This document shows positions 47,365-57,571 of a DNA stretch of 59,596 nucleotides, piece by piece (the first letter of the stretch is position 1; the number at the start of each line of letters is the position of its first letter). Below the pieces are notes generated by a model. The model was not told where the DNA came from, did not search any database, and was given only the letters and a program-made list of their open reading frames with translations. Origin of the DNA: Hysterium pulicare CBS 123377 (taxonomy: Eukaryota; Ascomycota; Dothideomycetes; Hysteriales; Hysteriaceae). The translations under genes and the position numbers were made by a program. Location: contig AJFK01000051.1 in the NCBI GenBank assembly GCA_000467715.1, positions 1-59,596 of the forward strand, written 5' to 3'.

Positions 47365-50300
47365 ATGGCGACCTTCCTGGAAAATGCATACACTCTGGTA
47401 TGGGAATTTCTCCCCGCTAATATCTGCAGAGCTTGAATAACAATTCTGGACACAGGTTCACCAGGACAACGCGGCGGACGTACCCTCCCAAAATGAGCTC
47501 AAGCAAGCACTGGAGAAAGGCACAGACGAGTCAAAAATCGAGACAATGGTAAACGAACCTCCGAGCAACGACCCTGCGACGGCAAATAACAGCACATTCT
47601 AACGGCTGTATAGAAGAAAATACTTTCCATTATGTTGAACGGAGACCCCCAGACAGGCCTTCTTATGCACATAATACGATTCGTCATGCCCAGCAAGTCG
47701 AAGCCTCTCAAGAAATTGATGTACCTATTTCTTGAAGTCTGCCCAAAACACGATGCACAAGGAAAGCTGAGACAAGAGTGGATATTGGTCTGGTACGTGG
47801 ACACTCCTCAACATGGATTATGATTTCACAGCTCACGGTGAGAAGCAATGCCATTCGTTTTGATCTTCAGGCACCAAATGAATATGTGAGAGGCAACACA
47901 TTACGCTTCGTGTAAGGGTATTTTGCACAATCCGGTTACAGATTCGCTAAGTTTGTCTTCAGATCCAAATTACGAGATGCTGAGCTAGTAGAACCGTTAC
48001 TGCGTAAGTTCTCTCCAATAGTCTATTATTTCAATATGTTTTCTCACTAAAGCTGTCTCACAGAACCCGCACGACAATGCCTCACTCATCGACATGCGTA
48101 TGTTCGAAAAAACGCCACTTTTGCGATCGCCTCCATCTTCACGCATCTCCCTGAATTACTTCCGGATGCACCTGATTTATTGACAACATTCCTGGAGGAG
48201 GAAAACGACGCTACTTGCAAGCGAAATGCTTTTGCTGCCCTGGCTTCCATCAGTCATGACAAAGCTCTAGAATACTTGAGCACAGTTTTCGATTCTATTC
48301 CCAATCACGACGAGCTCGTTCTACTTGCGGAGCTGGAGTTCATCCGCAGAGATGCCGCTTTAAATCCTCAAAACAAAGCACGATATTTACGGTTGATTTT
48401 TGATCTTCTGGAATCCAGTGTATCCACGGTCATCTATGAAGCTGCCCATGCTCTAACCAACCTCACCAACAATCCTGTAGCAGTGAAGGCTGCAGCTGGA
48501 AAATTTATTGAGCTTGCGATCAAGGAGCCTGATAATAATGTGAAGCTTATTGTGCTTGAAAGGGTGGACCAATTGAGGCAAAAGAATGAAGGCGTTCTAG
48601 ATGATCTGACAATGGAAGCGTTGCGCGTCCTATCCAGCCCAGATTTGGACGTCCGGAGAAAGGCCTTGAAAATCGCACTTGAGATGGTGACTTCCAGGAA
48701 TGTTGAAGAGGTGGTCCTACTTCTCAGGAAAGAACTCATGAAAACCGTGGACGAACAATACGAAAAGAACTCGGAATACCGCTCTCTTCTAATCTCTTCT
48801 ATTCATCAATCCGCCATCAAGTTCCCCGAGGTAGCAGCGAGTGTCGTAGGATCGCTCATGGATTTCATTTCAGACGTTAGCAGCAACGCATCTGCCGTCG
48901 ATGTAATTTCCTTCGTCAAAGAGGTCGTCGAACGATTCCCGGATCTCAGAGCATCGATTGTGGAACGTCTCGTATCTACTTTAGGTGAAGTCCGTGCGGG
49001 CAAGGTTTATCGTGGCGTATTGTGGATCATCGGAGAATTTTCTCTCGAAGCAAAAGACATCAGAGACGCTTGGAAAGGTATCCGCTCCTCTCTTGGCGAA
49101 ATCCCGATTCTTGCTTCAGAGCAACGACTACTCGAGGAAGCATCTGAGGGCAAAGAGCCGACTGAGCAAGTGAATGGTCATGCCAAACCTGCTGCTCCTT
49201 CTGGCTCCCGAAAAGTGCTTGCCGATGGCACCTATGCGACCGAAAGTGCTCTCACCTCATCTGCAGCAGCCAAGGCCAAGTTGGAAGCAGTGAAGAACTC
49301 TCAGAAACCACCGTTACGTCAGTTGATATTAGACGGTGACTATTATCTATCCACCGTGCTTTCTAGCACCCTGACGAAACTGGTGATGCGCCATTCCGAG
49401 ATCTCCAAGGATTCAGCGCGTACGAATGCCCTACGAGCTGAAGCCATGCTCATTATGATCTCAATCATCCGTGTTGGCCAATCTCAATTTGTCAAAACCT
49501 TCATTGACGAAGACTCGATTGACAGAATCATGTCTTGTGTTCGCTCGCTGTCAGAATTCGCGCAAAGAAAGGAGCTTGAAACGGTCTTTTTGGAAGATAC
49601 TCGCAAGTCTTTCAGGACGATGGTCCAAACAGAAGAAAAGAAACGAGCAGCCAAAGAAGCTGTGGAGAGAGCCAAGTCTGCCGTCAATGTCGACGACTTG
49701 TTCTCGATTCGACAGCTAAAGAAGAAAGAGCTGGATGGAACTGATGAAGTGGAACAGGATCTGGAGCGGGCAACTGGCGGCGATACGGCAACAGAAGATC
49801 TCACATCGAAGCTCAGCCGTGTTGTTCAGCTCACTGGTTTCTCTGATCCTGTATATGGCGAGGCCTACGTTAAGGTAAATTGTCTCCTGTGTTCCATTTG
49901 GGACCAACAACTAACAGCTTCAAGGTACATCAATTCGACATTGTACTTGATGTTCTTCTTGTCAATCAAACCACCGAAACACTCCAGAATCTCACAGTGG
50001 AATTCGCTACACTGGGTGACTTGAAAGTCGTAGAGCGTCCCCCAACACAGAACGTTGGCCCCCATGATTTTATCAATCTCCAGGCTACTATCAAAGGTAT
50101 CTAAATAGAAATTCGAGTCCTCGATGTGCTGTTCACTAATATCTCAATAGTCTCTTCCACGGACACCGGCGTTATCTTCGGTAATGTCATCTATGAAGGG
50201 TACGCCTTAGCTCTTTGCCAATTGCTATTATTGTCAAGCTAACAATTGCAACAGGGAGAAAGGTGTTGATTCTAACGTTGTCATCTTAAACGATGTCCAC

Positions 50301-53033: not shown

Positions 53034-53496
53034 ATTAGGCTAAGGTGGAGAGGATCGCGTTGCATGGTGGGCGAGGATTTCAAGATCACTCTGGTATGGT
53101 CTGGGTATCGCATTCCTTGAAGTTTCCGGCGTTTCTATTGCACTACTAGCATGAGTATTGTTGATTCAGGGGCTTGCACTTGGCTCTGAAAAGATAAGTC
53201 CTACTTGGTTCAGCATTGTCTTTCTTGTTAAATTAAAATACCCCAAAGCGGCTCATAAGATCTCATAATTCATCCTGACCACTCTCTCATTTTGATTATC
53301 TTGCATCATCGGTTACACAGCTGCTGTTCATACACCGCGCTTGCGTCTCACAAGCCGCACCTACCCCTAGAGAGTGCACCTTCCACTTCGAATGACTCAC
53401 CGCCTGCTTTCTATCTAAGATTTTCCTTCGCCGCTTGCTCTCCCGTTTTCACCTCCCCCGTATTTATAACAAATAAAATTTCACAAACTCAAAACA
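53034..53496. other. intergenic region upstream of tRNA gene
   Basis: The 463-bp gap contains the 3' flank of the kinase gene. The last 40 bp before the tRNA are AT-rich (TATTTATAACAAATAAAATT), typical of the upstream area of fungal Pol III genes. Confidence 0.45.
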
Positions 53497-53521
53497 AGCT
53501 GAGTGGCGCAGCGGAAGCGCG

Positions 53522-53579
53522 GTAAGTTGACACACTCTCTGACATATATAAACTTCCTCATACTGATTGATTACGTCAG
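53522..53579 (+). other. spliceosomal-type intron 1 in initiator tRNA, after position 26
   Basis: This 58-nt insertion begins GTAAGT, ends GTCAG, and has a branch-like CTGAT (in TACTGATTG) 14-18 nt before the 3' end. It lies between G26 and the anticodon stem (C27). Its length and signals equal those of mRNA introns elsewhere in this window. It is not at the canonical tRNA intron position. Confidence 0.8.
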
Positions 53580-53590
53580 CCGGGCTCATA

Positions 53591-53612
53591 GGGACGAAAA
53601 AAGACACTATAA
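53591..53612 (+). other. canonical tRNA intron at position 37/38
   Basis: This 22-nt insertion follows A37 directly 3' of the CAT anticodon and precedes A38 and the 3' anticodon strand CCCGG. This is the standard eukaryotic tRNA intron site processed by the SEN endonuclease. It has no GT-AG ends. Confidence 0.8.
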
Positions 53613-53621
53613 ACCCGGAGG

Positions 53622-53675
53622 GTGAGTTGAATCCATTAAAAACGGTCGAGTTCGAACCTTACTAATGACATTCAG
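53622..53675 (+). other. spliceosomal-type intron 3 in initiator tRNA variable loop
   Basis: This 54-nt insertion begins GTGAGT, carries a textbook branch site TACTAAT (53659-53665) and ends ATTCAG. It sits between positions 46 and 47 in the variable loop. Removing it restores the five-base variable region AGGAC and the T arm. Its first nine bases (GTGAGTTGA) nearly match those of intron 1 (GTAAGTTGA). Confidence 0.82.
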
Positions 53676-53712
53676 ACCTCGGATCGAAACCGAGCTCAGC
53701 TACAAATGAAAA

Positions 53713-53718
53713 TTTTTT
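53713..53718 (+). terminator. Pol III oligo-T terminator
   Basis: A run of six T residues begins 11 nt downstream of the tRNA discriminator base, the usual place for RNA polymerase III termination. No T run of this length occurs inside the tRNA gene or its introns. Confidence 0.8.
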
Positions 53719-54407
53719 GGCTTTTAAAGAGGGGTTCGAATAGTCGGAATGTATCTAAGGAATTTTCTTTTTGCACTTTTTGATAAACATCTCAAAGAAG
53801 AGTTTTCCTCGGGTAGGGAATACCGAGGAAAGGGGGAAGGGATGTGAGTCGTATATAGTTGATAAGACCGAATGTACGTCATCAATGGATCCCTATCGGT
53901 TCTGCAGAAGTAGCTCCGTTTAGATGAACTTATGCTAAATAGACTAAATTCCTTGTGTTGACTTGCTCGCTTCGGTCTGCTTGTCTGATTATATATTCCC
54001 ATGAAACTGCCAAGCATCATAAGCAAGATTCGAAGTCGACCGTTTTTAATGGATTCAACTTACCCTCCGGGTTTATAGTGTTACATTAGGTATCATAATC
54101 CGTCGGAGTCTGGGCTGCGCATCAAACTTGTGATGGCTTTCCTTGCTGTCCGCAAACATTGTTTGACCTTGGGAATGTGTTTCTAGAGGAGTATCTTGCC
54201 CTTAGCGGACATAAAAAATATCGTACATATAGCCTTCTGTTTTTGGGTGTGCAGGAAAAGGGTACTTGAAATCTAATTGTTTATCAGTCTCCTTGTGGAC
54301 GATCTTCTTCTGCCTCTCAATACTAGAATTACAACTTGAGGGTGGTTAATTCTAAGGTCTATGGGTTTAGCAAAGATGAATGACACTTTCCACTCTCCCA
54401 CCATCAA
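53719..54407. other. region downstream of tRNA, holding an inverted tRNA fragment
   Basis: No protein gene is recognised. The stretch contains the inverted partial copy at 54016-54081 and a TTCGAA-containing GGGGTTCGAATAG near 53731, neither of which forms a full tRNA. Its last part is the 3' flank of the tubulin cofactor E gene. Confidence 0.5.
54016..54081 (-). repeat. inverted partial copy of the tRNA gene (intron 2 end to intron 3)
   Basis: Read on the minus strand, 54081 to 54036 matches 53604-53649 at 45 of 46 positions without gaps. Homology continues more weakly to about 54016 (TTCGAA, CTT and ATGA shared). The copy spans the end of the 37/38 intron, the 3' anticodon strand, part of the variable loop and most of intron 3. 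The one clear difference turns GTGAGT into GTAAGT. The copy includes both exon and intron bases, so it was made from DNA or unspliced RNA. Confidence 0.9.
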
Positions 54408-56808: not shown

Positions 56809-57571
56809 ATGGATTATCAGGTAAGTACTGCATTCGATGCTATGTGTTCAGAGTCTCACAAGCCCACAGAACCGCGCTGGCTCCAAGTTTGGTGGAGGAG
56901 GCGTTGCCTCTCAGTCTGCCACCAATGCTGATCGTAGAGAACGTCTACGCAAGCTCGCTCTCGAAACCATCGACCTCGACAAGGACCCTTACTTCTTCAA
57001 AAATCACGTTGGCAGTTTCGAGTGCCGTCTATGCTTGACTGTTCACCAAAATGATGGATCATACTTGGCGCATACTCAGGGACGAAAGCATCAGACGAAT
57101 CTAGCACGCCGCGCGGCGCGCGAGCAAAAGGAGGGAAGAGATCGCGATGGAGCGCTTCCTGGCCTTCTCCAGGGCGTGCAGGTGAAGAAGAACATTGTCA
57201 AGATTGGTCGCCCGGGATACCAAGTCACTAAGACCCGCGATCCCTATTCACGCCAACAAGGTATTCTCTTCCACTTCGACTTTGCGGAGCTTGCGCCTGG
57301 CATCGTTCCTCGCATTCGATTTATGAGCGCGTACGAACAAAAAATTGAAGATCCTCCGGACAAAGCTTATCAGTATCTTGTCATAGCGGCGGAGCCTTAC
57401 GAAACGATTTGCTTCAAATTGCAGGCACGCGAAATTGACAGGAGCTCTGACAAGTTCTGGACCTGGTTCGACGAGGATAGCAAGGCATTCTGGATTCAAC
57501 TTCAATTCAAGACAGAGCGAGAGGAACGGTACAGTGGAGTCCCAGGTCTTGCTCCCTCAAGTCGGCGTTGA
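56809..57571 (+). CDS. PRP11: splicing factor 3a subunit 2 (SF3a66/Prp11)
   Basis: Two exons (56809-56820 encoding only MDYQ, and 56870-57571; intron 49 nt) give 237 residues. The N-terminus NRAGSKFGGGGVASQSATNA is diagnostic. The matrin-type zinc finger has Cys56, Cys59, His72 and His78 (FECRLC...YLAHTQGRKHQTNL). The core includes GRPGYQVTKTRD, FHFDFAELAPGIVPRIRFMS and YQYLVIAAEPYETICFKLQA, and ends WIQLQFKTEREER. Role: U2 snRNP SF3a component needed for prespliceosome assembly at the branch site. The protein lacks the Pro-rich C-terminal repeats of animal SF3A2, as in other fungi. The start of four codons before an intron is family-typical and confirmed by frame. Confidence 0.95.

Follow-up and report, generated by a model that had tools for sequence, protein, structure and literature searches.

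Candidate spliceosomal introns in initiator and other tRNA genes of the dothideomycete Hysterium pulicare

A stretch of 59,596 nucleotides from Hysterium pulicare CBS 123377 (hereafter the window) contains an initiator tRNA gene that is best read as carrying two spliceosomal-type introns together with one normal tRNA intron. The preliminary description of the window proposed this reading for that single gene, and the tests that we ran came out in favour of it and carried it further, as a second initiator locus and nine more tRNA genes also carry such inserts. The gene structure, the splice signals, their layout in two loci, the covariation of the exons and one pair of genes with and without an intron can be read directly in the sequence. 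Based on these features, we suggest that U2-type spliceosomal introns very probably reside in tRNA genes that Pol III transcribes in this Dothideomycete, with the outer introns removed by the spliceosome and the intron at position 37/38 by the SEN endonuclease. Making these 11 tRNAs would probably need the messenger-RNA splicing machine.

The initiator gene (C41) lies on the forward strand at positions 53497-53702 of the window and is composed of four exons of 25, 11, 9 and 27 nt separated by inserts of 58, 22 and 54 nt. Exon 1 (53497-53521, tRNA positions 1-26) provides the 5' acceptor strand and the D arm and contains an intact A box (53504-53514). It is followed at site 26/27 by the 58-nt spliceosomal-type intron 1 (53522-53579; GTAAGT...CTGAT, 53563-53567,...CAG). 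Exon 2 (53580-53590, positions 27-37) reads CCGGG CUCAUA and is followed by an ordinary 22-nt tRNA intron (53591-53612) without GT-AG ends, which is the only one of the three inserts located at 37/38, the canonical site of eukaryotic SEN-type introns. Exon 3 (53613-53621, positions 38-46) is ACCCGGAGG, and the 54-nt spliceosomal-type intron 2 (53622-53675; GTGAGT...TACTAAT, 53660-53666,...CAG) separates it at site 46/47 from exon 4 (53676-53702, positions 47-73), which supplies the T arm and the 3' acceptor strand and contains an intact B box, GGATCGAAACC (53681-53691). Outside the gene, we recognized by eye a TATA-like element, TATTTATAA, 28-36 nt upstream (53461-53469, forward strand), which by comparison with fungal Pol III promoters might act as a promoter element, and a T6 run 11-16 nt downstream (53713-53718, forward strand) would be a likely Pol III terminator.

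When 53522-53579, 53591-53612 and 53622-53675 are removed, a 72-nt initiator tRNA is left, exactly to the base as the preliminary description had it. All stems are paired in the spliced 72-mer. Its anticodon is CAU, the anticodon stem ends in three G-C pairs at its foot, and A1-U72 and A54 are present, to which we can add A60, the identity elements being judged by eye against the known rules. ARAGORN identifies the spliced 72-mer as tRNA-Met(CAT). The donors (GTAAGT and GTGAGT), the branch motifs (CTGAT and TACTAAT) and the CAG acceptors that had been described for the two outer inserts were likewise borne out.

A second initiator locus was found at C323:32812-33016, with inserts at the same three sites as in the window gene. 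The exons of the two loci are identical at 66 of 72 positions, and the six differences, given from the window gene to C323, make up three compensated pairs, 7:66 (G-C to A-U), 49:65 (C-G to A-U) and 50:64 (U-A to G-C), each of which is Watson-Crick in both loci. The pair 7:66 bridges exon 1 and exon 4, which are separated by all three introns, and since it covaries between these exons, selection appears to see the spliced RNA. The two loci share a conserved 37/38 intron (21 of 22 alignment columns identical), and their outer inserts are diverged, with 41 of 58 and 35 of 63 columns identical (0.49 for shuffled sequences). The outer introns of C323 keep their signals, GTAAGT...CTGAT...CAG and GTAGGT...TACTAAT...TAG. 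In both initiator genes the A box and the B box are intact, and a T6 or T7 run lies just downstream.

According to the preliminary description, an abundant intact initiator tRNA family elsewhere, with no transcript from this locus, would speak against its reading, and no intact initiator gene was found in the 37.2-Mb assembly. A pattern for an intron-free initiator gene, contiguous across 26/27 and allowing up to three mismatches, gave 0 matches in the 37.2 Mb and 0 with the control. The pattern for the initiator 5' exon gave 39 matches against 34 with the control, and the 30 of them that were checked for the initiator anticodon arm yielded only the window and C323 loci. With the 3' exon pattern, a third match (C506) was not tRNA-like, leaving two initiator loci only; the split 5' exon pattern gave 0 matches in viral contigs. 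An intact initiator gene could lie in a gap or have been missed, because the assembly consists of 596 contigs and may be incomplete.

Our searches across the genome turned up 17 inserts outside 37/38, spread over 11 tRNA genes and at eight or more sites (a lower bound) that include the D, anticodon and T arms. In addition to the two initiator genes, the genes are, with site numbers as assigned by us, Ile-TAT (C433) and Ala-AGC (C471, L068) with an insert at 58/59, Gly-CCC (C353) and Lys-TTT (C80) at 53/54, Ile-AAT (C478) at 21/22, Leu-AAG (C244) at 28/29, Leu-CAG (C33) in the D arm and at 58/59, Thr-TGT (C19) at 26/27 and 51/52, and Arg-CCT (C133, L076) at 15/16, about 21/22 and 58/59. Among the 34 tRNA genes resolved by ARAGORN and reading by eye, 11 have an ectopic insert and 23 have none, and the latter include a gene each for Ala-AGC, Ile-AAT and Gly-CCC (L005, L131 and L007). 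These counts describe a sample and not the whole tRNA set, as the search used the tRNA model at E<=10, A-box and B-box patterns and one B-box-plus-donor pattern. The pattern searches returned mostly noise: the B-box-plus-donor pattern gave 18 matches against 37 with the control (all 18 read), and the A-box and B-box patterns gave 55 against 73 (all 55 examined, 14 known and 41 fetched), 13 against 7 (9 fetched and 2 known examined) and 24 against 18 (10 fetched and 5 known examined). A further pattern gave 50 matches against 94, of which only the known Lys-TTT locus was read. The tRNA-like loci L060, L120 and L146 and several tRNA-derived repeats were left out of the gene count.

Such interrupted genes are missed by standard tRNA finders. 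ARAGORN found no tRNA in the window and Rfam at the gathering threshold gave no match there. Both initiator loci are absent from the genome-wide tRNA-model matches, 20 at E<=0.001 and 27 at E<=10, with 63 of 1229 candidates scored. When long introns were allowed, ARAGORN assigned the unspliced window gene to Val(GAC), with an intron of 124 nt, and of the 11 unspliced genes it missed six and gave five a wrong identity. When the 11 spliced products were submitted, all were called as tRNA, nine with the expected anticodon and two with a 4-nt anticodon owing to a one-base slip in the placement of the 37/38 intron.

The insert ends follow the rules of messenger-RNA introns. With the register chosen so that the tRNA stays intact, 15 of the 17 inserts, including both in the window, are GT-AG and two, both in Arg-CCT, are GC-AG. 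The parsing favours readable GT-AG inserts; an AG was required before the downstream exon, and all equivalent registers were also listed. The pattern that revealed Leu-CAG and Arg-CCT included donor letters; in the nine genes found without such letters, 12 of 12 inserts are GT-AG. GT is present at +5/+6 in 15 of 17 inserts and a YAG end in 16 of 17. A CTRAY motif 8-30 nt before the insert end was present in 14 of 17, against a mean of 2.2 and a maximum of 8 in 2000 shuffles, the exceptions being inserts 2 and 3 of Arg-CCT and insert 1 of Thr-TGT, and YTRAY occurs in 16 of 17 (shuffle mean 5.0, maximum 13). The 37/38 introns of the interrupted genes are GT-AG in 0 of 6 cases. When 400000 random inserts were cut from the window in two registers, 0.71% were GT-AG and 7 combined GTNNGT, CTRAY and YAG. 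With GT-AG or GC-AG ends, a donor complementary to U1 together with CTRAY, and a length like that of mRNA introns, the inserts show the sequence features of the U2 type. The weakest is insert 2 of Arg-CCT, where the donor, GCGTGC, is poor and the same six letters occur on either side as a direct repeat.

We then compared the inserts with five mRNA introns of the window, placed by homology in two genes. The mRNA introns are 50-65 nt long and contain CTRAY in four of five cases, and 16 of the tRNA inserts are 47-58 nt long with one of 78 nt (range 47-78). The mRNA donors, GTCAAT, GTAAAT, GTAAGG, GTATGG and GTAAAC, are weaker than those of the tRNA inserts; the strict combination of GTNNGT, CTRAY and YAG is present in both outer inserts of the window gene and in 11 of 17 tRNA inserts overall, versus 0 of 5 mRNA introns. 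Because lengths and branch motifs are alike and the mRNA donors are weaker, the signals belong to the same class and are stronger in the tRNA genes, so that the earlier statement that both kinds of intron share the same signals holds for the class but not for the donors. Insert 2 of Leu-CAG skips a CAG six nt past the branch motif and needs an AAG acceptor, and the coatomer mRNA intron at 49875-49924 likewise skips CAG for AAG (ACTAACAGCTTCAAG). Two gaps in the coatomer gene, near 47790 and at 50100-50200, contain no clear mRNA intron.

The Ala-AGC genes form an intron-present and intron-absent pair. The exons of the interrupted gene (C471) are identical to the intron-free gene (C78, L005) at 72 of 72 positions, and its 50-nt insert, GTACGT...TACTAAC...TAG, follows TTCGA in the T loop. 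The flanks of the two genes are no more alike than shuffled sequences (0.53 versus 0.53 and 0.48 versus 0.49). This pair and the variety of insert sites make intron gain testable in a gene of fully known structure and promoter.

We also examined how the inserts lie relative to the Pol III signals. T runs of 5-9 occur within 15 nt downstream in 10 of the 11 interrupted genes, and Leu-AAG has none within 40 nt. Within the inserts, we counted 0 T5 runs in 925 nt versus 1.6 expected, which is not significant (P about 0.18). In four genes, Ile-TAT, Ala-AGC, Leu-CAG and Arg-CCT, the insert at 58/59 is inside the B box, and since it interrupts the box, Pol III promoter binding should weaken. At 53/54 the acceptor AG stands before TTCGANNCC. 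In the inserts at 58/59, GGTTCGA is continued by the donor GT in the place of the NT of the box. Splice-site letters may partly replace B-box letters in these genes, and the promoter could act as a filter on where introns survive.

If all the inserts were ectopic tRNA introns cut by SEN through a bulge-helix-bulge or a relaxed structural route, the GT-AG ends would be incidental. Removal of multiple ectopic tRNA introns by SEN-type enzymes is known in Cyanidioschyzon, nucleomorphs and Crenarchaeota (PMC4090602, PMC3978253). The preliminary description had named a clear bulge-helix-bulge as evidence against its own reading, and we searched the junctions for this motif, a central helix of 4 bp with a 3-nt bulge on either side. 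Each of the four initiator junctions, in the window and in C323, has only two of four central pairs in its best register. Among the 17 inserts, the full central helix was present in three (0.8 expected), with a mean of best registers of 2.53 versus 2.22 for shuffled sequences, and the remaining 14 are below four pairs, on which ground the archaeal motif was rejected as a general reading. The canonical 37/38 introns do not follow this archaeal rule either (0 of 6), and therefore the test disfavours only the archaeal-type route. Removal by SEN, however, gives no reason for GT-AG or GC-AG ends in 17 of 17 inserts and CTRAY in 14 of 17, and we consider it highly improbable.

It is also quite unlikely that the interrupted genes are pseudogenes or silent and that the cell relies on intact tRNA genes which the assembly lacks or the searches overlooked. 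Eukaryotic tRNA genes with an insertion in the D or T arm are commonly regarded as pseudogenes, apart from exceptions in nucleomorphs and red algae (PMC4090602); the assembly is fragmented, Ala-AGC, Ile-AAT and Gly-CCC have a gene of the uninterrupted type, and four genes have a cut B box. However, the compensated pairs between the initiator loci, the lack of any intact initiator gene among those found, the downstream T runs, and the Ala-AGC exons unchanged despite unrelated flanks all argue against decay. An origin as Pol II transcripts, or within longer Pol II transcripts that are spliced like mRNA before tRNA end processing, would explain why interrupted B boxes are tolerated. Its chance appears slim given the intact A and B boxes and T6 or T7 runs of both initiator genes, the TATA-like element at -36 to -28 and inserts free of T5 runs; for the genes with an interrupted B box it may still apply. 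Group I and group II self-splicing introns were rejected as well; their catalytic cores comprise hundreds of nucleotides, the outer inserts are 54-58 nt long, and the window has no Rfam match. In the minimum-energy fold of the full precursor, the acceptor, D and anticodon stems persist along with four T-stem pairs, but this carries little weight because the fold does not differ significantly from shuffled sequences (z is -1.04) and the centroid is without the D stem.

Our proposal for spliceosomal introns in these genes covers transcription, intron removal, the enzymes and the order of the steps. The window locus would be a functional initiator tRNA gene whose A and B boxes direct transcription by Pol III, and the primary transcript would contain two U2-type introns (26/27 and 46/47) and one ordinary intron (37/38). 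The spliceosome would remove the two outer introns as lariats, using the GUAAGU and GUGAGU donors, the CUGAU and UACUAAU branch sites and the CAG acceptors, and the SEN endonuclease and tRNA ligase would take out the one at 37/38, probably when the tRNA body is able to fold. The same route would apply to ten or more further tRNA genes, the other initiator gene found among them. How much initiator tRNA is available, and with it the initiation of translation, would then depend on the spliceosome. Judging from the gene sequences, it is likely that every initiator gene in the assembly is spliceosome-dependent, that spliceosomal introns have spread into tRNA genes as a class, that one precursor passes through two unrelated splicing machines, and that initiation is directly coupled to splicing capacity. 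If this is true, initiator tRNA supply is a read-out of spliceosome activity, and uncapped Pol III transcripts beyond U6 are spliceosome substrates. The splicing of tRNA and mRNA is taught as separate, and a tRNA precursor that needs both would break this divide.

To our knowledge, the nearest kin of these introns are the spliceosomal introns of U6 and rRNA genes. In some fungi, among them Schizosaccharomyces pombe, the U6 snRNA gene has a spliceosomal intron in its Pol III precursor. They resemble the present case as U2-type introns inside a Pol III non-coding RNA gene; in contrast, their host belongs to the splicing machinery and is not a tRNA, and here 17 introns occupy 11 tRNA genes. Spliceosomal introns also occur in rRNA genes of lichens and deuteromycetes, and a 1993 paper cited in PMC11782384, by its title, reportedly dealt with spliceosomal introns in fungal rRNA genes. 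These too are mRNA-type introns in an ascomycete structural RNA, but the transcript is made by Pol I and has no tRNA-specific splicing step in the same molecule.

A search of open-licence PMC papers did not bring up any nuclear tRNA gene with a spliceosomal intron, and tRNA splicing is classed as spliceosome-independent (PMC13149111). As in our genes, several introns outside 37/38, including the D and T arms, are present in nuclear-type tRNA genes of Cyanidioschyzon merolae, the Guillardia theta nucleomorph and Crenarchaeota (PMC4090602, PMC3978253). In contrast to the inserts described here, the nucleomorph introns are 3-24 nt long, those of Cyanidioschyzon and Crenarchaeota use the bulge-helix-bulge, and none is reported with GT-AG ends, a branch site and an acceptor (PMC4090602, PMC3978253). 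Introner-like elements represent spliceosomal intron gain in the same fungal class, the Dothideomycetes (PMC4457414), and a search of that paper for the term tRNA had no match. These elements are near-identical and multi-copy. For intron 2 of the window gene, the one insert searched, an 84-base query returned only itself and an inverted fragment in the genome. When all 17 inserts were compared with each other, the best score was 22 (shuffled mean 20.4, maximum 25), and the homologous initiator pair itself scored only 21 and was not singled out.

The inverted fragment is a 65-nt partial copy (54017-54081, reverse strand) that is 92% identical to 53604-53668, covering the last part of the 37/38 intron together with exon 3 and the greater part of intron 2, and it has the donor GTAAGT where the window gene has GTGAGT. 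In addition to the B box of exon 4, intron 2 contains a B-box-like GTTCGAACC (53650-53658) that is absent from the C323 intron. Two families of tRNA-like repeats with variable middles were also observed, one with L061, L063, L064, L067 and L122 (GTCGGTGTAGTCTAGTGG...) and one with L062 and L121 (GGTGRGATGGTGTAGTGG...), and they are probably tRNA-derived short repeats. The U6 snRNA gene (L080, G000:C383:19529) has no intron by eye, and a B-box-like GGTTCGA lies just after its T run, a placement that resembles the downstream B block of yeast U6. Seven dispersed, uninterrupted 5S rRNA genes (C188, C22, C94, C42, C355, C434 and C546) were seen, as all 7 matches run from 1 to 120 without an insert (47 of 1863 candidates scored). 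As for the protein-coding neighbours, the window encodes a coatomer beta protein that shares 95% identity with that of Lindgomyces ingoldianus across 93% of the query, and a kinase encoded just upstream of the tRNA gene is 75% identical to that of Zopfia rhizophila. These matches point to a Dothideomycete near Pleosporales. Splicing factor SF3a subunit 2 (Prp11) is encoded at 56825-57571 on the forward strand, at a distance of 3 kb from the tRNA gene, and this proximity is probably a coincidence.
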